Below, one piece after another: positions 1,902 to 12,749 of a stretch of DNA of 64,000 bases. The stretch is from an uncultured Trueperaceae bacterium (GTDB lineage: Bacteria; Deinococcota; Deinococci; Deinococcales; Trueperaceae), in contig CAJXOA010000001.1 of the NCBI GenBank assembly GCA_913057685.1, positions 1 through 64,000 of the forward strand, written 5' to 3'. A program made the position numbers and the translations under genes. The notes under the pieces were generated by a model. It saw only the letters and a list, made by a program, of their open reading frames with translations, did no database searches and was not told the DNA's origin. Numbering within the stretch: position 1 is the stretch's first letter; each line of letters opens with the position of its first letter.

Positions 1902-4045
<2,144 letters not shown>

Positions 4046-4046
<1 letters not shown>

Positions 4047-4981
4047 TGCCGCCGGCGGGGTCGGGATCGCGCTTTCCCCACGCCGCTCGCGGCCGCCGTC
4101 GCCGGATCGTGGGGCTCGCTCTCACGGCGCTCGCCGGTCTCGCCCTCGCCTACGTCCTCGCGACGTTCGCCGCTCGGAGCGCCGCCACGATGCACCCCAC
4201 CTTCGCCGACGCTTGGCCGCCCCCACCCCACGTCATCGCCCACCGTGGCGGCGCCGCCCTCGCCCCCGAATCGACCCTCGCAGCGTTCGACCTCGCCGTG
4301 CGCCTCGGGGCGGACGCCCTCGAGATGGACGTGCACCTCTCCGCCGACGGTGAGCTCGTCGTCCTCCACGACGCCACGGTCGACCGCACCACCGACGGCA
4401 GCGGCGCGGTGGCCGACCTTTCCTGGCGCGAGCTCGCCGCCCTCGACGCGGGGGCGGGCACCACCATCCCTCGGTTCGTGGACGTCGCGCGGGCCCACCC
4501 GACCACGCCCCTCGGCGTGGACGTCAAACCGCCCGGGACGGCCGCCGCGACGGCGCTGTGCGCCGCCCTGCGCCAGGAGGGCCGGACGGGCGACACCGTC
4601 GTCGGCAGCTTCCACGCCGACGCGATGGCCGCGTTCCGGGCGGCCTGTCCGGAGGTCGCCACCGCGGCGACCCCGAACGAGGTGCGGACCTTCGTCCTGC
4701 TGGCCCGCGCCCGCCTCGCCGGGCCCTACCGACCGCCGTTCGACGTCCTGCAAGTCCCGGTCGAGCGGGGCGGGATCCGCGTCGTCACCCCCGCCGTGAT
4801 CCGCGCCGCCCACGCGAAGGGCGTGCCCGTGCACGCCTGGACGATCGATGACCGGGCGCAGATCGACGCCCTGCTGGCGCTCGGTGTCGACGGAATCATC
4901 GGCGACCGCCCCGACCGCGCCCTCCGCGCGGTCGGTCGCCCGGTCGACGCGACGCTCCTCCCACCCCACGTGACGCCGTAA
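4046..4981 (+). CDS. glycerophosphodiester phosphodiesterase, membrane-anchored
   Basis: A 311-residue GDPD-family TIM-barrel enzyme that splits glycerophosphodiesters into glycerol-3-phosphate and an alcohol. The active-site signature is visible: H-R-G at 66-68, E93-x-D95 (LEMDV, metal ligands) and H108 (VLHDATVDRTTDG). A basic N-terminus followed by one hydrophobic helix (residues 21-43) suggests a signal anchor, with the enzyme facing the periplasm. The ATG overlaps the sigA TGA; an in-frame GTG one codon earlier is an alternative start. The gene is thus probably co-transcribed with and coupled to sigA, an unusual pairing. It could play a part in phospholipid turnover. Confidence 0.88.
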
Positions 4982-5039
4982 CGCCTCCGCCCCGACGGCG
5001 CAAGGTTCGCACGTGCCCTGCGGCCCGGGCGGACCCGTA

Positions 5040-5068
5040 TTGCGCCCCGAGCGGCGCTTTGCTACGCT
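5040..5068 (+). promoter_or_regulatory. promoter upstream of first OmpR-type regulator
   Basis: A TTGCGC -35 box (5040-5045), 17-nt spacer and TACGCT -10 box (5063-5068) lie about 70 nt upstream of the start codon. The gene then has its own AAGGAGG ribosome-binding site. Confidence 0.65.
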
Positions 5069-5138
5069 CCGCGACCAATCCGTGACCGACGAACGGAGCG
5101 GCGCCGTTCGTGACGACCGTTGCGAAGGAGGCGCCGTG

Positions 5139-5990
5139 ATGTGGTTCGACGATCCCGTACTCGTTTCGCTCCCCCGCGACCCCGCGTTCGCCCCTCCCGG
5201 CCCCGCGCCCTGCGCCGCCGTGGCCGGACCGGTGGCGTCCCTCGAGGGTGCGCAGGTGCCCTTCGGCCCCCGCGTCCTGCTCGTCGGGACCGACCGGCCC
5301 CTGTTCTTCCTCCTCCAGCGCTCGCTCCGCGCGCACGGGTTCCGCGTCGCGGAAGCCCGCAGCGGCGACGACGCCCTCCGCCGCGCGCACGCCAGCGACG
5401 TCGTGGTGATCGACGTCGATCCGGCCTCCCCGGAAACCGGGTTCGTGGAGATCCTGCGCGAGGAGTTGCCCGAGCTGGGGTTCGTGTTCCTGACCGGCGA
5501 CGTCGATGTCCAGCGCACCTTGCACGCGTACGACCTCGGGGCGGACGGGTGCATTTCGAAACCGTTCGCCTTCGCCGAGCTCGCTGCGCGGCTCCGCGTC
5601 GTGGTGCGCCACCGGCACGTCGGAGGACCGCTGCGCTACGGGGACCTCGTCGTCGACGTCGGACGCGGCTGCGCCACCTGGGGCGGGTCGTGGCTGACGC
5701 TGTCCGGCCTCGATTTCGATCTTCTCGCCCTGTTCGCAGCGCATCCCCGCCGCCTCTGGACGCGGGAAGGGATCCTTCGACGGGTGTGGGGGTCGATGGG
5801 CGAGGAGCTCGAACGGACCGTAGACGACCACGTCAGCAGGCTGCGGTGCGTGCTCGGTGACGACCCGGCGCACCCGACGTACCTGCAGACCGTCCGGGGG
5901 CGCGGCTACCGCTGGATCGCCGTCCCGACCAGGGCCTCCACCCGGCCGAACGGCTCGGCCGAAAACGCCGGTTTCTCCACACGCCCGTAA
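5139..5990 (+). CDS. OmpR-family response regulator with atypical receiver (RR1)
   Basis: A 283-residue two-domain regulator. After about 40 variable residues comes a receiver domain (46-160) that keeps the phospho-acceptor D92 (VVIDVD), the switch Thr T119 (FLTG) and K141 (SKPF). The usual pair of acidic Mg ligands is reduced to G-T-D (50-52). The C-terminal winged helix (about 165-265) is intact, with the LSGLDFDLLALF helix and the GRGYRW wing. I chose ATG 5139 over GTG 5136 because AAGGAGG is then 7 nt away. No histidine kinase is encoded nearby. It stands just upstream of the pilin/chaperone/usher-like operon and is the natural candidate to control it. Confidence 0.85.
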   Translation: MWFDDPVLVSLPRDPAFAPPGPAPCAAVAGPVASLEGAQVPFGPRVLLVGTDRPLFFLLQRSLRAHGFRVAEARSGDDALRRAHASDVVVIDVDPASPETGFVEILREELPELGFVFLTGDVDVQRTLHAYDLGADGCISKPFAFAELAARLRVVVRHRHVGGPLRYGDLVVDVGRGCATWGGSWLTLSGLDFDLLALFAAHPRRLWTREGILRRVWGSMGEELERTVDDHVSRLRCVLGDDPAHPTYLQTVRGRGYRWIAVPTRASTRPNGSAENAGFSTRP

Positions 5991-6120
5991 CGAAGCGAAC
6001 CTACCCTCCTGGAACGTCGATCGCGCCGGGCTCCCCCAAACCGCCCACGAGATGAGCCCGGCCGACCGACGTCGAGGGGTTCACGGATCGGCGGCGCACG
6101 TGGACCTTCGTCGTTCTCGC

Positions 6121-6136
6121 GCCGCCGTGTGGCGGC
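6121..6136 (+). other. stem-loop directly before the ribosome-binding site of the pilin-like gene
   Basis: GCCGCC, a GTGT loop and GGCGGC form a perfect 6-bp hairpin that ends 2 nt before the AAAGGTGG ribosome-binding site. It lies in a leader that may begin after TACCCT at 6002-6007. It could shield or present the ribosome-binding site. Confidence 0.45.
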
Positions 6137-6151
6137 AGAAAGGTGGTCCGC

Positions 6152-6757
6152 ATGCCGTCCTCCCTCCCGCTTCGCCCCCGCCCCCACGTCCTCGCGGTCG
6201 CCCTCCTCGCCGGCCTCGTCGCGACGACCGCCGCCGCGCAGGACGTCACGGCCAGCGAGACGTTGAGCATGGAGCTCGACGACATCAACATGATCACGAT
6301 CACAGGCTCGGTGCCGACCATGACCTGGGACAACGACACGTTCGAGGTCGGCTCGACGTCCGCCGTGAAGACCGATACGAGCACCCAAATGGACTACACG
6401 CTCGGCCCGGGGATGGCCATGACGGTGCATTTTGACGCCACCAATGTTGATCCCACTGCGCGGACAACGGATGGTTCTGGGGCGTACAAGTATGCAGCTA
6501 TCAAGTCGATGAAAGTTCAGATTGGAGACCATCCCGAAGTCACAATCTTCAGTTCGAACGGAGCGACCATGATTCCCGACGTCGCGCTAGACGGATCTGC
6601 GAAGACGGCCATCCAAGACGATTCTGATGGAGGTCAGGGGTCGGGGGACACGCCTTCGACGGTGACATACACGGTCGAGGTTGACTTGACGAAGGGGCGC
6701 GCGTTTGAGCAAACGACCTTCGACCTCGTGTACACCGCGGTGGATCCGACGCCGTGA
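6152..6757 (+). CDS. secreted pilin-like / surface-fibre subunit-like protein
   Basis: A 201-residue protein with a clear signal peptide (about 1-31, cleavage after TTAAAQ). The mature part is rich in Thr, Asp and beta strands and ends in alternating strands (TVTYTVEVDLTKGR, then FDLVYTAVDP), as fibre subunits and DUF4402-like surface proteins do. No cysteine is present. I find no catalytic motif. ATG 6152 is preferred over GTG 6143 because the ribosome-binding site then has normal spacing. It overlaps the next gene as GTGA, and a chaperone-like and an usher-like gene follow in the order known from archaic chaperone-usher operons. From about 6421 onward the coding DNA drops to roughly 56% GC (hand count to 6720), against well over 70% in the first part of the gene. 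The pilin role is inferred. Confidence 0.6.
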   Translation: MPSSLPLRPRPHVLAVALLAGLVATTAAAQDVTASETLSMELDDINMITITGSVPTMTWDNDTFEVGSTSAVKTDTSTQMDYTLGPGMAMTVHFDATNVDPTARTTDGSGAYKYAAIKSMKVQIGDHPEVTIFSSNGATMIPDVALDGSAKTAIQDDSDGGQGSGDTPSTVTYTVEVDLTKGRAFEQTTFDLVYTAVDPTP

Positions 6758-7602
6758 ACCGTGCGCGGGAGCGTCGGTGGCCCGTCACGGCGGGCCACCG
6801 CGCCCCCTTCGTCGTGGGCGTCGTCGCCTGCGCCGTTCTCGCTCCGGCGGCGTGGGCGCAGATCGACGTGCCATCCGGGCTGGCCGACGTCCATCGGGCC
6901 GCCCCCGGGGACGTGATCGAGGGCACGGTGCGCGTATCGAACGACGGCGCGCGCCCGCGAACCGTCGCGTTGTCGCTATGGGACCACCGCGTGCGCCCGG
7001 ACGGCGACGGGTGGGTGGCCGCGGGGTCGCTCCCGCGGTCCGCCGCACCGTGGATCGACGTCCCCAGCGTCGTGCGCGTGGGGCCTGGGGAGACGCGCGA
7101 GGTCGCCTACCGGTTGCGCGTCCCGCCCCACGGCGTCGATGGAACGTACTGGGCGACGCTCATGGTGCGCCCCCGCTACGAGGAAAACGCGGCGACCGGT
7201 GGTTCGGCGCGGACCGAGGTGGGGCTTCGCCCCGTCCGCCGCTTCGCGGTGGAGCTCGTCGCGGACGTCGGTGGGGCCGAGCGTTCGCACCTGGCGATCG
7301 ACGACGTCGGCCTCGAGCGCGACGGTGACGCGCTCGCCCTCCACCTCGCCCTGCACAACGAGGGCGGTCGGTGGGTGCGGCGCCCGTCGCTCGAGGCGCG
7401 GGTCCTCGACCCCGAGACCGGCGAGCGCGTCCACACCGTTCGGACCGGGGTTCGCACCCTCTACCCCGGCGCGGGGACGCGCGCGCGGTTGGAGCTCGGC
7501 GACCTCCCGTCGCGCCGGTTGCGCCTCCTGGTGCTGGCGCGCGACGACGCGGGCGACGTCGCGGCCGTGCGCTTCGACCTCGATCCACCGCCCGACCCCT
7601 GA
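6754..7602 (+). CDS. periplasmic PapD/DUF916-like chaperone-like protein
   Basis: A 282-residue exported protein (signal peptide about residues 14-36, ending in AWAQ). An N-terminal Ig-like domain contains a strand pair of the type GTVRVSNDGARPRTVALSLWDH, then IDVPSVVRVGPGETREVAYRLRVP, which is the F1/G1-like layout of PapD-type chaperones and of DUF916 surface proteins. A second beta-rich domain follows (about 165-280). It begins with GTG overlapping the stop of the pilin-like gene and ends 6 nt before the usher-like gene. The context suggests it handles the fibre subunit in the periplasm. The family call rests on fold-like pattern, not on a strict signature, so it may instead be a structural surface protein. 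Confidence 0.55.
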   Translation: MNRARERRWPVTAGHRAPFVVGVVACAVLAPAAWAQIDVPSGLADVHRAAPGDVIEGTVRVSNDGARPRTVALSLWDHRVRPDGDGWVAAGSLPRSAAPWIDVPSVVRVGPGETREVAYRLRVPPHGVDGTYWATLMVRPRYEENAATGGSARTEVGLRPVRRFAVELVADVGGAERSHLAIDDVGLERDGDALALHLALHNEGGRWVRRPSLEARVLDPETGERVHTVRTGVRTLYPGAGTRARLELGDLPSRRLRLLVLARDDAGDVAAVRFDLDPPPDP

Positions 7603-7608
7603 GGCCCC

Positions 7609-10431
7609 GTGCGTCGCGTGCGACCGGCCGGCGTGCCACGGTTCGCGTGCGCCGTCGCGCTCGTCGCACTCGTGGCGGTGCTGGGCGGACGAACGCACGC
7701 GGGCGACGACGCCGTACGCACCGTGGCTCCGGGCGACGTCGTCACCCTCGCCGTTCCTTTCGGTCCCTTCCCCAAGGATCGCGACGCGATTCCGCTCGAC
7801 GTGCGTCCGCCGGACGGGTGGACGCTCGTCGACGCCCCCCGCCACGCGACGTTCGTGGCCGACGCCCCGCGCGCCCTCCTCGTGACGGTGGTGGTGCCGT
7901 CGACCGCGCCGGCCGGGCGCGCGACCCTGACGGCGACGTTGGCGGAGGGACGCGACGACGTCGCGACGGTCCACGTCCCGCTCGCGGTGCGCGCGGAGCC
8001 GCGTGCGACGTGGACGGCCGTCGGGCCTCCGACGCTCGAGGACGCGGGCGGCGTGACCGCCCCCCTCGAGCTCCGGAACGACGGCAACGTCGACCTGACG
8101 CTGACGCTCGAGGCGGAGCCCACGGGGCGGGTCGTGCCCGAACACGTCGATCTCGCGCCCGGCGCGCGGGCGCGCGTCGAGGTTCGCGTCTCCGTACCAC
8201 GGCGGTCGGGGGGCGACGGCGCGGACCGGGTGCGCGTCACGGCGCGCTCCGAGCGCAAGGTTCTCGCACGCCACGTCGTCTCGATGCCGGCGGGGGCGTC
8301 GCCCCCCAGCCCCGCGCCCGCGCGGCCCCGCTTCGCCGGCACGGTGGAACTCCGCACCGGGGTCGGGTCCGGCGTGAGCGACGCGCTCGCCCTGACGGGG
8401 CGGACGCGCGACCGCGCGCCGGGCCGAGCCACGCTGGCGCTCGACGCGACCCTCCGCCCCGACGCGGCGCCGGACCTGGATCTCCGCCTCACGCACGGAG
8501 CGGTCCGCCTCGACGTCGGGCGCGAGGCCCGTGCGGCGGTCCCCGGCCGACCTCGGATCGAGGGGTTCGGGGTTGCCGTCGAACTCGACCGGTTCGACGT
8601 CGCCGGGGTTGCGGCCACCCTCGAGGGGTTCGTGGCGATCTCGGACCCCGACCCGAACGCGCCACCGAGCCCGGAGGGCGCAGGTGCACCGTCACTGCAG
8701 GGGGGTGCGCGCCTCGCGCTGGATCCCGCGGCGGGATGGGACGTGGACGTCGCGCTCGGGGGCTCGCGGGCGGCGATGGCGGGGTCGGTCGGCGGGGAGG
8801 TGACGCGCCCGCTCGGGGACTCCGGCGGGGTCGCGTCGGTGCGGGCGCGGGTCGGTCTGCACGCCGACGCCGCGTCCCCCCTAGGGGTGTCCGGCTCGTT
8901 CACGGCCCGCTGGCGCGACGCCCACCGGGCGTTCGCGTGGGCGTTCGATGGGGCGACCGGTGGGGCGGCCGGCTCCGCGGCACCGGAGGGCGAGGCGGGG
9001 GGGTTCCGCGCGGTCGCCGCGACCGCCTCGTGGTGGCCGGAGGCGGCGCCGGTGGCGTCGCTCGTGGCGCACGCGACGTCGCGGCGGGGGCACGATCCGG
9101 GCGATGCGTCGGGTGCCGGCGTGGATCGCGACGACCTGACGGTGCGCGTCACGACGGCGCCCGCGCCGTGGAGGGTCGACGTCCGTGCGCACGTCGCACG
9201 CGTCGGCGTCGGTGCGGCCGCCGGCCCGGCGCGCGAGGCGTCCCTCACCGTCGCGGCGGAGGGGGGCGACGGGGCCGGCCCGTGGCGGGCGCGGGCGGAG
9301 GTCGGACTGCACCTTCGTCCCGGCGTGGAGGGGGACCGGCTCGCCGCCGGAGGAGCGATCCCCGCGCCGTCGCTGCGGGTGGTGGGGGAGGCCGACCTGG
9401 GGGTGGGCACCGCGTCGGCGTCGGTCCGTCGCTGGCGACCCGACGGGGGGACGGCGGCGCCCGAACTCCACGCCGAGGTGGCGTGGGACGCCTCCGTGGG
9501 GGACGGGGTCGCGGCACGGGTGGCGGCCTACCGCGAAGGTCCGGTCGGACCGGGGGCGGTCCGAGGCCTGGACGTCGCCCTCGAAGCGACCCGCGCGGGC
9601 CCGGGGGTGGCCAGCGTGACGGCGGAGCGGTGGGCGTCGGACCGGGGGGTCGGTGGATCGCTCGCCGTGCGGTGGGCGGGGTCGGTCGGTGCGGGGGTGG
9701 GCCTTCCCGCCCTCGACGTGGACGCCGCCCTCCACCTCGACGCCGGCGGGGCGGGGCGGCGCGTCCACGCCGAACTCGCGGTGGGGCGGGCGTTCGCGGT
9801 GCCGTTGGCGCCGCCCCCACCGACCGGGGAGGTGATGGGCACGCTCCGCGGGCCCGACGGGCCGTGGGCCGGCGCGGAGGTCCGGGTCGGGGGGCGGATC
9901 GTGACGACCGACGCCGACGGCGTCTTCCGTGCGCGGGGCCTGCCTTTGGGCGAGGTGTACGTCGCGCGGGGGGCGGTCGGCTGGCCGTTCGACGTGCGGT
10001 TCGACCCCCCGCCCCCGCACCGGGTCACCGTCCGCGCCGGGGCGACGACCCGCGTCGCCTACGACGTGGTGCGGACCGGGACGCTGACCGGGTCGGTCGA
10101 GGTCGTCGCGACCGGCGACGCGCAGTTCGTGGACGCCCCGCGGTTCGACGTCGGGTCGGTCGCGGTGGTCCTCACGCGCGCCGGGGAGCGGCGGGTGGTT
10201 CGGCCGGGCCCGGACGGGCGGTGGCGGCGCACCCAGGTGCTCCCGGGCCGGTGGCGGGTCGAGGTGGTGCTGGGCGAGGGCGCAGCGCGCGTGCAGGCGG
10301 TGCGCGCGCCGGAGGTCGTGCACCTCGCGCCCGGCGGTGGGGCGGACCTCCCCGTCCGGCTGGTGCTGCAGCCTCGGACGGTCCGGACGCGCGACGGCGG
10401 CCGCCTGACGGTGCCCGAGGGGGCACCCTGA
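7609..10431 (+). CDS. large exported beta-rich protein, usher-like, with carboxypeptidase-regulatory-like C-terminus
   Basis: A 940-residue protein starting at GTG 6 nt after the chaperone-like gene. The signal peptide spans about residues 8-32. Residues about 35-230 form two Ig/NEW3-like domains (for example APLELRNDGNVDLTLTLEAE). The middle, about 240-735, is a long series of short amphipathic strands with alternating hydrophobic residues and Gly/Asp turns, as in an outer-membrane barrel. The last 200 residues hold two carboxypeptidase-regulatory-like domains (GEVMGTLRGPDGPWAGAEV, then TTDADGVFRARGLP), which also occur at the ends of ushers and in many surface proteins. With its neighbours this looks like an outer-membrane assembly platform. 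A plain cell-surface scaffold is the main alternative. I see no canonical FimD signature. Confidence 0.5.
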   Translation: MRRVRPAGVPRFACAVALVALVAVLGGRTHAGDDAVRTVAPGDVVTLAVPFGPFPKDRDAIPLDVRPPDGWTLVDAPRHATFVADAPRALLVTVVVPSTAPAGRATLTATLAEGRDDVATVHVPLAVRAEPRATWTAVGPPTLEDAGGVTAPLELRNDGNVDLTLTLEAEPTGRVVPEHVDLAPGARARVEVRVSVPRRSGGDGADRVRVTARSERKVLARHVVSMPAGASPPSPAPARPRFAGTVELRTGVGSGVSDALALTGRTRDRAPGRATLALDATLRPDAAPDLDLRLTHGAVRLDVGREARAAVPGRPRIEGFGVAVELDRFDVAGVAATLEGFVAISDPDPNAPPSPEGAGAPSLQGGARLALDPAAGWDVDVALGGSRAAMAGSVGGEVTRPLGDSGGVASVRARVGLHADAASPLGVSGSFTARWRDAHRAFAWAFDGATGGAAGSAAPEGEAGGFRAVAATASWWPEAAPVASLVAHATSRRGHDPGDASGAGVDRDDLTVRVTTAPAPWRVDVRAHVARVGVGAAAGPAREASLTVAAEGGDGAGPWRARAEVGLHLRPGVEGDRLAAGGAIPAPSLRVVGEADLGVGTASASVRRWRPDGGTAAPELHAEVAWDASVGDGVAARVAAYREGPVGPGAVRGLDVALEATRAGPGVASVTAERWASDRGVGGSLAVRWAGSVGAGVGLPALDVDAALHLDAGGAGRRVHAELAVGRAFAVPLAPPPPTGEVMGTLRGPDGPWAGAEVRVGGRIVTTDADGVFRARGLPLGEVYVARGAVGWPFDVRFDPPPPHRVTVRAGATTRVAYDVVRTGTLTGSVEVVATGDAQFVDAPRFDVGSVAVVLTRAGERRVVRPGPDGRWRRTQVLPGRWRVEVVLGEGAARVQAVRAPEVVHLAPGGGADLPVRLVLQPRTVRTRDGGRLTVPEGAP

Positions 10432-10512
10432 GCGGTGGGGCGGACGTCCCTGTCCTTCGTACCGCCGGGTATGCCGTGATGCGGTCCGAAGCGGGGCGAG
10501 AAGGGAGTGCGG

Positions 10513-11277
10513 ATGACCGCTACGATCGAACCGTCCGGCGACGGTCGCCGCGACGGACCTCCGACCGCGCGGCGGCCGCGGGTCGCCTTTACGCCGCTGG
10601 ACGGCGACGCGGTCGCGACCCGGGCCCTGGTGCGCGACCTCGGTGCGGGCGGCGTCGACGTCGACGTCGTCCCGCGCGTGGGTGCGGACCTGGCGGCGCC
10701 GGACGGCATCGACGTCGCCCTGGTCGACGTCGACCCACGCTCGGACGACGGGTGGGCCGGCGTGGAGGCGGTCCGGCGCGAAGCGCCGGACGTGCCCCTG
10801 CTCGTGCGGATGTTGCGCGACGACGTCGCGGCGACCCTGCGGGGGTTCGATCTCGGTGCGGAGGACGTACTGCCGTACCGGACCGTATCGGCGGAGGTGC
10901 GGGCGCGGATCGCGGTGGTCCTGCGTCGCCGGCGACGCGATTCCGTCATCGGCTACGGCGACCTCACCATCGACTTCACCGCCCGCGTGGCGTTCCTCGG
11001 GGCGGAGGCGCTGCCGTTGAGCGGCTTGGAGTTCGACGTCCTGGCGTGGTTGGCGGGGCATCCACATCGGGTGTGGGCGCGCCGAGACCTCGTCGAACGG
11101 GCGTGGCCGGCGTGGCAGGACCCGCCGGAACGCAGCGTCGACGTGCGCATCCGCAACCTTCGCGTCGCGTTGGGCGACGACGTGGGGTGCCCGACGTTCA
11201 TCGAAACGGTCCGCGGTCGGGGCTACCGCTGGGTCCGTCCCCCCGACGACGTCCCCCCTGGCTTTACAGATCGGTAA
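10513..11277 (+). CDS. OmpR-type regulator with degenerate receiver (RR2)
   Basis: A 254-residue protein. Its receiver-like domain (about 22-140) keeps an Asp at the phosphorylation position (D72, ALVDVD) but has lost the acidic pair (VAFTPLDG), the switch Thr (LLVRMLRDD) and the Lys (VLPYRTV). Normal phosphorylation is therefore unlikely. The winged-helix DNA-binding domain (about 150-245) is intact and close to RR1 (LSGLEFDVLAWLAGHP; ETVRGRGYRW), so the two are paralogues. ATG 10513 is chosen because AAGGGAG lies 5 nt upstream. It begins 81 nt after the usher-like gene. Confidence 0.82.
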   Translation: MTATIEPSGDGRRDGPPTARRPRVAFTPLDGDAVATRALVRDLGAGGVDVDVVPRVGADLAAPDGIDVALVDVDPRSDDGWAGVEAVRREAPDVPLLVRMLRDDVAATLRGFDLGAEDVLPYRTVSAEVRARIAVVLRRRRRDSVIGYGDLTIDFTARVAFLGAEALPLSGLEFDVLAWLAGHPHRVWARRDLVERAWPAWQDPPERSVDVRIRNLRVALGDDVGCPTFIETVRGRGYRWVRPPDDVPPGFTDR

Positions 11278-11292
11278 CGACGTGGTTACGAT
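11263..11292 (+). promoter_or_regulatory. promoter with inverted repeat ahead of RR3
   Basis: TTTACA (11263-11268), 18 nt, TACGAT (11287-11292). An inverted repeat GTAAC-N6-GTTAC (11274-11289) fills the spacer and is a likely operator. A second possible promoter follows, TTGATG (11292-11297)-17-CATACT (11315-11320). Confidence 0.6.
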
Positions 11293-11340
11293 TGATGAAA
11301 CGGTGCGAATGCGCCATACTGGACCGAAACGAGGAGTTCG

Positions 11341-12069
11341 ATGACCCTACGCCCGCACACCTTCCGCGCCAGCTCCAACGTGCTCCTGGTCGGCCTCGAT
11401 GCGGCCTTCCACCAGGCGCTCGAGCGGCGCCTCGTCGAGAACGAAGTCCGGATCGTCGTCGAGAACGACGTCGACACTGCACCCGCTCACGGCCCCGACG
11501 TCGACGTCGCCGTCGTGGACGTCCGGACCGAGGGAGGCCTCGACCTCGTGCGCGGCTTGCGCCGCTTCCGTCCGGAGCTGCCGGTCGTCAGCATCGGCGC
11601 GGCGGACGACGTCGAGACGACCGTCGACCTGCTCGACCGCGGCGTCGAGGACCACCTGGACGCCCCCGCCGATCCCGACGTCGCCTCGTGGCGGGTCCTC
11701 ACCGCCGCCGCGGGCGGCGTGGGGCTGCGTGCGCTCGGGACGCAGGACCTGCGGTTCGACGAGGGCACGCGCACGGTGCACTACCAGGGGCGGAGTTCCG
11801 CGCTCACGCCGGGCGAGTACGACCTCGTCTCGACGCTCGCCCGCAAACCGGGGCAGGTGTTCCGCCGGGCCGACGTCGTCGCGCGGCTGTGGGGTGACGA
11901 TTCGGAGAACGGCGAGCGGGCGGTCGACGCCCTCGTGAGCCGTACGCGCCGGCGCCTCGAGCGCGACCTCGGGGTGGAGGGCGGCATGATCCGGACGGTG
12001 CGGGGCGTCGGCTACCAGTTCGAGCGACGCCGCACCTCGCGCGACGACGGCGAGGGGGCGGACGCGTGA
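11341..12069 (+). CDS. OmpR-type regulator with degenerate receiver (RR3)
   Basis: A 242-residue protein. The receiver-like domain keeps D60 (AVVDVR) but lacks the acidic pair (VLLVGLD), has Gly where the switch Thr should be (VVSIGA) and has no Lys (EDHLDAPAD). The winged helix (about 135-230) is intact (LTPGEYDLVSTLARKPGQVF; RTVRGVGYQF). The start ATG has a GAGGAG ribosome-binding site. It is preceded by its own promoter and an inverted repeat inside the spacer. Its stop overlaps the RR4 start (GTGA), so the two are made together. Confidence 0.85.
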   Translation: MTLRPHTFRASSNVLLVGLDAAFHQALERRLVENEVRIVVENDVDTAPAHGPDVDVAVVDVRTEGGLDLVRGLRRFRPELPVVSIGAADDVETTVDLLDRGVEDHLDAPADPDVASWRVLTAAAGGVGLRALGTQDLRFDEGTRTVHYQGRSSALTPGEYDLVSTLARKPGQVFRRADVVARLWGDDSENGERAVDALVSRTRRRLERDLGVEGGMIRTVRGVGYQFERRRTSRDDGEGADA

Positions 12070-12749
12070 GCGGGACCGGGAACGGCGGCGGCAGCCTCCT
12101 CTGGTTGCGGTCGGACGCGGCCCCGCTCGGGGACGTCGGTGACGTCCTCGAACGCGAGGGCTACGTCGTCCATGCGGCCCCGCAGTCGGCGCCGGACGCG
12201 CACGCCGCCTCGTTGGGCGTCGACGCGGTCCTGCTGGACGGCCTCGAGGAGGCCGGCTGGCGCTTCTTGCGGAGCGTGCTGTCGAGCCGACCGGACCTGC
12301 CGATCCTCGTCGTCAGCGAGGCGCTGCCGACCGCGGCGCGCATCGGCCTGTTGGACCTCGGGGTCGCCGCGCACGTGAGCGCGCCGGTCGACCCGGCGGT
12401 GGTGGCCGCCCGCCTCCGCTGGGCGCGCAGCCGACGCGAGCGTCGCGCGGCGCGGTCCGCCCCCGCGATCGAGATCGACGACGCGCAGCGGCGCGTCTGG
12501 ATGGACGGCGAGGCGTTGGACCTCCCGCGCCGCGAGTTCGACGTCCTGACGGTGCTGATGATGAACTCCGGCCGGGTCGTGCCGCGCGAGCGCTTGATGC
12601 AGTCGGTGTGGGGGCCCAGCTACAAGCCGGGCTCGCGCTCGCTCGACGTGCGCGTCAGTCGCCTCCGCAAGATGCTGGGCGAGGGCACGCGCGACGGCGC
12701 CCCCACGATCGAAACCGTGCCGGGCGTCGGTTACCGCCTGCTCGTCTGA
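12066..12749 (+). CDS. OmpR-type regulator with degenerate receiver (RR4)
   Basis: A 227-residue protein translated from a GTG that overlaps the RR3 stop. The receiver-like domain keeps D58 (AVLLDGLE) and a Ser at the switch position (LVVSEA) but has lost the acidic pair (LLWLRSD) and carries Ala in place of Lys (VSAPVDP). The winged helix is complete (LPRREFDVLTVLMMNSGRVV; ETVPGVGYRLLV). With RR3 it may form a heterodimer or two outputs of one signal. No sensor kinase is nearby. Confidence 0.85.
   Translation: MSGTGNGGGSLLWLRSDAAPLGDVGDVLEREGYVVHAAPQSAPDAHAASLGVDAVLLDGLEEAGWRFLRSVLSSRPDLPILVVSEALPTAARIGLLDLGVAAHVSAPVDPAVVAARLRWARSRRERRAARSAPAIEIDDAQRRVWMDGEALDLPRREFDVLTVLMMNSGRVVPRERLMQSVWGPSYKPGSRSLDVRVSRLRKMLGEGTRDGAPTIETVPGVGYRLLV

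Follow-up and report, generated by a model that had tools for sequence, protein, structure and literature searches.

A conserved Deinococcota gene cassette resembling chaperone-usher systems, with a WxLIP-type chaperone

Tightly coupled genes for a small secreted subunit (P0002), a periplasmic chaperone (P0003) and a large, predicted outer-membrane protein resembling an usher (P0004) lie in the first 64,000 nucleotides of contig CAJXOA010000001.1 from an uncultured Trueperaceae bacterium (assembly GCA_913057685.1); this whole stretch is referred to as the window. The operon is real, and its components are conserved together across the phylum Deinococcota. The cassette probably works like a chaperone-usher pathway in a variant form (with a probability of roughly 0.6), as an export and assembly system served by a chaperone of the WxLIP type.

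6143 to 6757, + strand: subunit P0002, 204 amino acids; the likely true start is the ATG at 6152
6754 to 7602, + strand: WxLIP-type periplasmic chaperone P0003, 282 amino acids
7609 to 10431, + strand: usher-like, predicted outer-membrane protein P0004, 940 amino acids

A GTGA overlap joins the start of P0003 to the stop of P0002, and a gap of 6 nucleotides separates the stop of P0003 from P0004. The order of subunit, chaperone and usher-like large protein is also that of the archaic (Csu-type) chaperone-usher pathway. A first-pass annotation, made from the letters of the window, had described the coupled trio in this order, and every element of that description is present; taken as a whole, its reading of the locus is partly supported. 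In the proposed mechanism, a signal peptide would take the subunit to the periplasm, where P0003 would bind it and fill its open beta-sandwich with a strand of chaperone domain 1. The complex would then dock on P0004, the barrel of which would pass subunits to the cell surface, each linked to the one after it when the chaperone strand gives way to a strand from the N-terminus of the incoming subunit. Strand donation, export through the barrel and polymerisation would together yield a surface fibre, the role that the first-pass annotation had suggested.

A surface-fibre operon would not be new in kind in this phylum, since archaic chaperone-usher systems have been reported from Deinococcota (PMC4654587). 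What appears to be new is the pairing of a WxLIP-type chaperone in a diderm bacterium with an usher-like barrel that has no inserted plug.

Linkage of the three genes across Deinococcota

The search set comprised 111 Deinococcota genomes from 31 genera. A profile of the chaperone finds 57 genomes in 20 genera and a profile of the large protein finds 64 genomes in 22 genera, with both proteins in 55 genomes when the lists are compared by eye. Several of the genomes with the large protein only are fragmented, or have matches confined to the immunoglobulin (Ig)-like domains. At 57 of the 58 chaperone loci the large protein lies within 3.2 kb of the chaperone (on the same strand in 46), and 54 of the 58 have a recognisable subunit; at the sole exception, L096, the contig ends close to the chaperone. 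The loci were picked mostly by their chaperone match, so the linkage figure is conditional on the chaperone, and the 58 include two overlapping stretches of one locus (L057 and L107). Profiles built with the window and its sister species left out recover P0003 at E = 3.7e-53 and P0004 at E = 1.3e-48 (residues 16–935, with a composition bias of 94 bits), which argues that the trio is not a chance grouping. The association that the first-pass annotation read in a single stretch therefore holds elsewhere: the three genes stay together across the phylum.

Thermus species often have two versions of the cassette, and named carriers include Thermus igniterrae, T. arciformis, T. caliditerrae and T. 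composti. The same cassette is found on four Deinococcus megaplasmids, where the genes are annotated as ‘hypothetical protein’ except for one large protein, a ‘carboxypeptidase-like regulatory domain-containing protein’. This surface system, widespread in Thermus, Deinococcus and their relatives, appears to be unnamed, and Pfam and NCBIfam give it no family name. Contig C7 of the window's own genome carries another complete copy (L044, G000:C7:48000-64000) at 4154–9393, with two subunit genes, a chaperone (5609–6511), a large protein (6574–9393) and no OmpR-type neighbours.

A chaperone related to WxLIP

P0003 has two Ig-like domains, domain 1 at residues ∼36–165 and domain 2 at ∼166–282. Searched against the Protein Data Bank (PDB), the family profile finds EfmWxLIP1 (entries 9i25 and 9i1y) as its best match over both domains, at E = 2.6e-6 when built from 18 sequences and at 4.8e-7 when built from 29, and no PapD-type chaperone up to E = 10. 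Pfam matches of single chaperones to DUF916 and DUF3324 are weak. WxLIP is the DUF916-DUF3324 protein of the Gram-positive WxL clusters, and profile comparison indicates that the P0003 family is a relative of WxLIP and not an ordinary PapD. In published AlphaFold models, a hairpin strand of WxLIP is predicted to complete the beta-sandwich of WxL (PMC10599100).

The cassette resembles the WxL/WxLIP clusters of Bacilli in this homology and in grouping small secreted beta-rich subunits with a WxLIP-like protein. The main rival explanation is a surface complex of the WxL kind: the barrel would serve as an anchor in the outer membrane, and the WxLIP-like protein would hold adhesin subunits to it or to peptidoglycan, with neither polymerisation nor secretion through the barrel. 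It draws on the fact that the best solved relative of the chaperone is WxLIP, a proposed anchor and stabiliser of WxL. However, P0003 does not have the C-terminal transmembrane helix of WxLIP (the highest 19-residue mean hydropathy in its last 70 residues is 0.76), and the WxL domain PF13731 is found in 0 of the 111 genomes, whereas the Lactococcus control is positive. The cassette also differs from the Bacilli clusters in having a barrel protein and a diderm host. On balance this complex is unlikely, and further evidence on both sides comes from the large protein and the subunits.

The genome of the window has no PapD_N match. In another Deinococcota genome, G047, there is a probable archaic chaperone-usher operon (L158, G047:C134, 2–409 and 805–4191), consisting of spore-coat-U-like subunits, a PapD_N chaperone and a 735-residue usher-like protein, a probable usher as judged from gene order and sequence style. 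The G047 chaperone matches PapD_N at 3e-14, CsuC in the PDB at 4e-4 and the Escherichia coli PapD profile at 1.6e-7, and it also matches domain 1 of the P0003 family profile at 2.8e-8. Domain 1 of P0003 is in this way bridged by sequence to PapD and CsuC through an archaic chaperone, and the earlier description of P0003 as ‘PapD/DUF916-like’ stands, as that of a WxLIP relative with a bridge to PapD.

The usher-like protein and its subunits

Ushers of chaperone-usher systems are 24-stranded barrels with a plug domain inserted between strands. Three regions can be distinguished in P0004.

7705 to 8292, + strand: two N-terminal Ig/NEW3-like domains, residues ∼33–228; NPCBM_assoc at E = 0.003, sub-cutoff
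8326 to 9813, + strand: predicted beta-barrel region, residues 240–735, from the count of strand-like segments
9826 to 10413, + strand: C-terminal beta-sandwich domains, residues ∼740–935; CarboxypepD_reg

The profile of the N-terminal domains is similar to the chaperone (hhalign 97%; the hhalign comparisons given here are local and use mature regions). Residues 240–735 hold 27 amphipathic strand-like segments compared with 15.6 ± 2.7 in shuffled sequence, and the barrel region of a homologue holds 26 compared with 12.5 ± 2.5. The C-terminal regulatory-like domain of the first-pass annotation is recognisable as CarboxypepD_reg at residues 742–816 (E = 1e-5), yet falls under the curated cutoff; the same domain is matched in 16 of 18 members of the large-protein family.

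The structure was modelled on a Thermus-type homologue (L062:8175-11027, 42 sequences), chosen for its deeper alignment than that of P0004. The model has a predicted local distance difference test score (pLDDT) of 93.1 and a predicted template modelling score (pTM) of 0.62, and shows two N-terminal beta-sandwiches (20–192), ∼28 consecutive hairpin strands (204–572) and further beta-sandwiches (587–949); the connections between strands are all short by DSSP. In a Foldseek search of the PDB the best barrel matches are the ushers FimD (E = 4.9e-14) and PapC (2.2e-10), with LptD well behind at 1e-6, and the alignment spans the usher length. The strands of the model would be expected to close into a barrel. 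A barrel-like fold is inferred for P0004 as well, from the homologue model, the leave-out profile match and the 27 amphipathic segments; the barrel part of P0004 aligns to its family at low confidence. Neither of the outcomes that the first-pass annotation had named as refuting its reading, a large protein with no predicted barrel or homologues apart from the other two genes, is seen at the level of the family.

This protein is usher-like without matching the usher family. PF00577 is found in 0 of the 111 genomes with a positive E. coli control, a search of low power that also misses the probable G047 usher; since it does so, the missing match proves little. P0004 matches no usher model, and the barrel region shows no sequence similarity to classical ushers (hhalign probability 0.1%), in contrast with the structural likeness to FimD and PapC. 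The G047 usher-like protein, unmatched by PF00577 and by the E. coli usher profile alike, has no similarity to the P0004 family.

These results also bear on the rivals. A plugless barrel would suit the anchor of a WxL-like complex, but an anchor has no need of ∼28 strands with ushers as the best barrel matches. A second explanation, that the cassette is an archaic chaperone-usher operon of the ordinary kind, so diverged that its usher and pilins escape profile detection, could account for the gene order, the archaic systems reported in the phylum (PMC4654587), the uninformative PF00577 result and the bridge of domain 1 to PapD_N and CsuC. A predicted barrel in the outer membrane with Ig-like domains at its C-terminal end, the two-domain chaperone and the predicted, weakly pilin-like fold of a related subunit are further likenesses to the archaic pathway. 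In contrast, the two N-terminal Ig domains, the ∼28 strands in place of 24 and the absence of an inserted plug are unlike ushers, no PapD in the PDB is as close to the chaperone family as WxLIP, the G047 usher is dissimilar to the P0004 family, and the subunits belong to no known family and have no spore-coat-U matches. For want of an usher or pilin family match, and with these differences in strand number, plug and subunit, membership in the archaic chaperone-usher family, to which the first-pass annotation had likened the gene order, is not supported, and an ordinary archaic operon is improbable. Least probable is that the large protein is a big porin or transporter, with secreted Ig proteins as accessories and no role in subunit export. 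With no plug inserted, the barrel might act as an open channel; one member of the large-protein family matches Porin_4 (E = 2e-4), and a tripartite ATP-independent periplasmic (TRAP)-type transporter gene adjoins the locus; however, linkage to chaperone and subunit recurs in several families of the phylum while other neighbours vary, and porins do not typically have Ig domains at their two ends.

P0002 has a signal-peptide-like N-terminus ending in AAAQ, no Pfam family and an orthologue with 70% identity at the same place in the sister species G004. Its fold was approached through a related class of single-domain subunits that occurs at other loci; the model of one of them (L107:4977-5594, with 26 sequences) has a pLDDT of 91. 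The mature N-terminal residues 22–36 are predicted to be unpaired and contain the conserved HTINVKIPN, with the pattern V-x-V/I-x-I-P. Among the 27 top structural matches of the model, 18 are chaperone-usher pilins or pilin domains (best E = 0.026), including CS17, CfaB, FimH, PapA and CsuA/B. The predicted structure is compatible with an open Ig fold plus a donor strand but does not prove it, and this weak likeness to pilins argues against a WxL-like complex, for which the usually small number of subunit genes per locus can be cited in favour. Spore-coat-U (SCPU) has no match in any subunit scanned. The subunit C-termini, with the pattern PG-Y-x-x-x-V-T-Y-T, we take to resemble WxL ends, by eye and unscored.

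Third-position GC content of the subunit gene is 0.79, compared with ∼0.9 in its neighbours, and the drop seems to be concentrated in the second half of the gene (window 6430–6720). Exchange, or relaxed constraint on a surface protein, is a possible cause.

Several results weigh against a chaperone-usher-like system. The P0003 family is weakly similar to seven E. coli PapD-type chaperones (hhalign 60–80%). With leave-out profiles, the mature part of P0002 shows no significant similarity to the subunits of other loci, and its assignment as a subunit therefore rests on position and general features; the L107 subunit model has no structural match under E = 0.001. The L062 model has a pTM of 0.62 and no plug-sized insert between strands, its template modelling (TM) scores against ushers are low (0.22–0.32 over ∼730 aligned columns), and many of the proteins that Foldseek ranks high are multi-Ig proteins with no relation to it.

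A bolder version of the chaperone-usher-like reading, advanced tentatively, is that the cassette represents a distinct phylum-wide Deinococcota secretion and assembly pathway, with a plugless barrel of ∼28 strands and a chaperone drawn from a common WxLIP/PapD stock. If this is true, WxL clusters and chaperone-usher pili would be branches of one old strand-donation system, with or without an usher. Among the papers listed in a search of an open-licence library, none naming both was found, and the evolutionary link between the Gram-positive clusters and the pili, two surface systems regarded as unrelated, is testable. The thermophile version of the cassette is attractive for structural work.

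Regulators and neighbouring genes

Four OmpR-type regulators, assigned by Pfam and alignment, surround the trio in the window.

5139 to 5990, + strand: OmpR-type regulator 1; phospho-acceptor Asp and conserved Lys present
10507 to 11277, + strand: OmpR-type regulator 2; degenerate receiver, conserved Lys lost
11341 to 12069, + strand: OmpR-type regulator 3; degenerate receiver, conserved Lys lost; orthologue beside the trio in G003 and G004
12066 to 12749, + strand: OmpR-type regulator 4; degenerate receiver, conserved Lys lost; orthologue beside the trio in G003

The open reading frame of regulator 1 spans 325 amino acids (5013–5990), with a start probably near 5139. All four proteins match Trans_reg_C with 66–81 bits, in agreement with the first-pass annotation, which had placed one such regulator before the trio and three after it. 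Response_reg is above the cutoff in regulator 1 (46 bits) and below it in regulators 2–4 (16, 25 and 16 bits), the receivers of which keep the phospho-acceptor Asp with loss of the conserved Lys and are pseudo-receivers (10507–12749). The description ‘kinase-less’ is borne out within the window, which contains none of the nine HATPase_c matches of the genome; the nearest on the contig is at 104783, ∼41 kb past the window. The TRAP-type transporter gene lies on the other side of the OmpR cluster.

Orthologues of regulators 3 and 4 occur near the trio in G003, and of regulators 1–3 in G004. The OmpR flank was considered as a hallmark of the system and rejected, as the other copy in this genome is without such regulators. 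The OmpR surroundings are present here, as first described, yet they are local to the genus; because the C7 copy is without them and the regulator-like neighbours of other lineages differ, the OmpR cluster is placed outside the conserved machine.

Cassettes of the Thermus, Oceanithermus and Deinococcales types have a divergently transcribed protein of ∼540–640 amino acids upstream (L108 3768–5477, L054 3706–5574, L094 3666–5588 and others like them), the start of which resembles a winged-helix/BTAD regulator by eye. Of three examples compared with Pfam, two have no match and one has a weak AAA match; near one Deinococcus copy of the cassette, a protein scores as BTAD. On the 3′ side of the large protein, Thermus-type cassettes have two small lipoprotein-like genes (∼390 and ∼140 amino acids; L108 10993–12598, L063 10722–12363, L128 330–1943), which have no Pfam name and may be further parts of the cassette. 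Elsewhere in the window, 1902–4046 encodes an RpoD-like factor of the Sigma-70 type. It is extended at the N-terminus by almost 300 residues that are rich in Lys-Ala-Pro repeats and resemble histone-H1-like tails.

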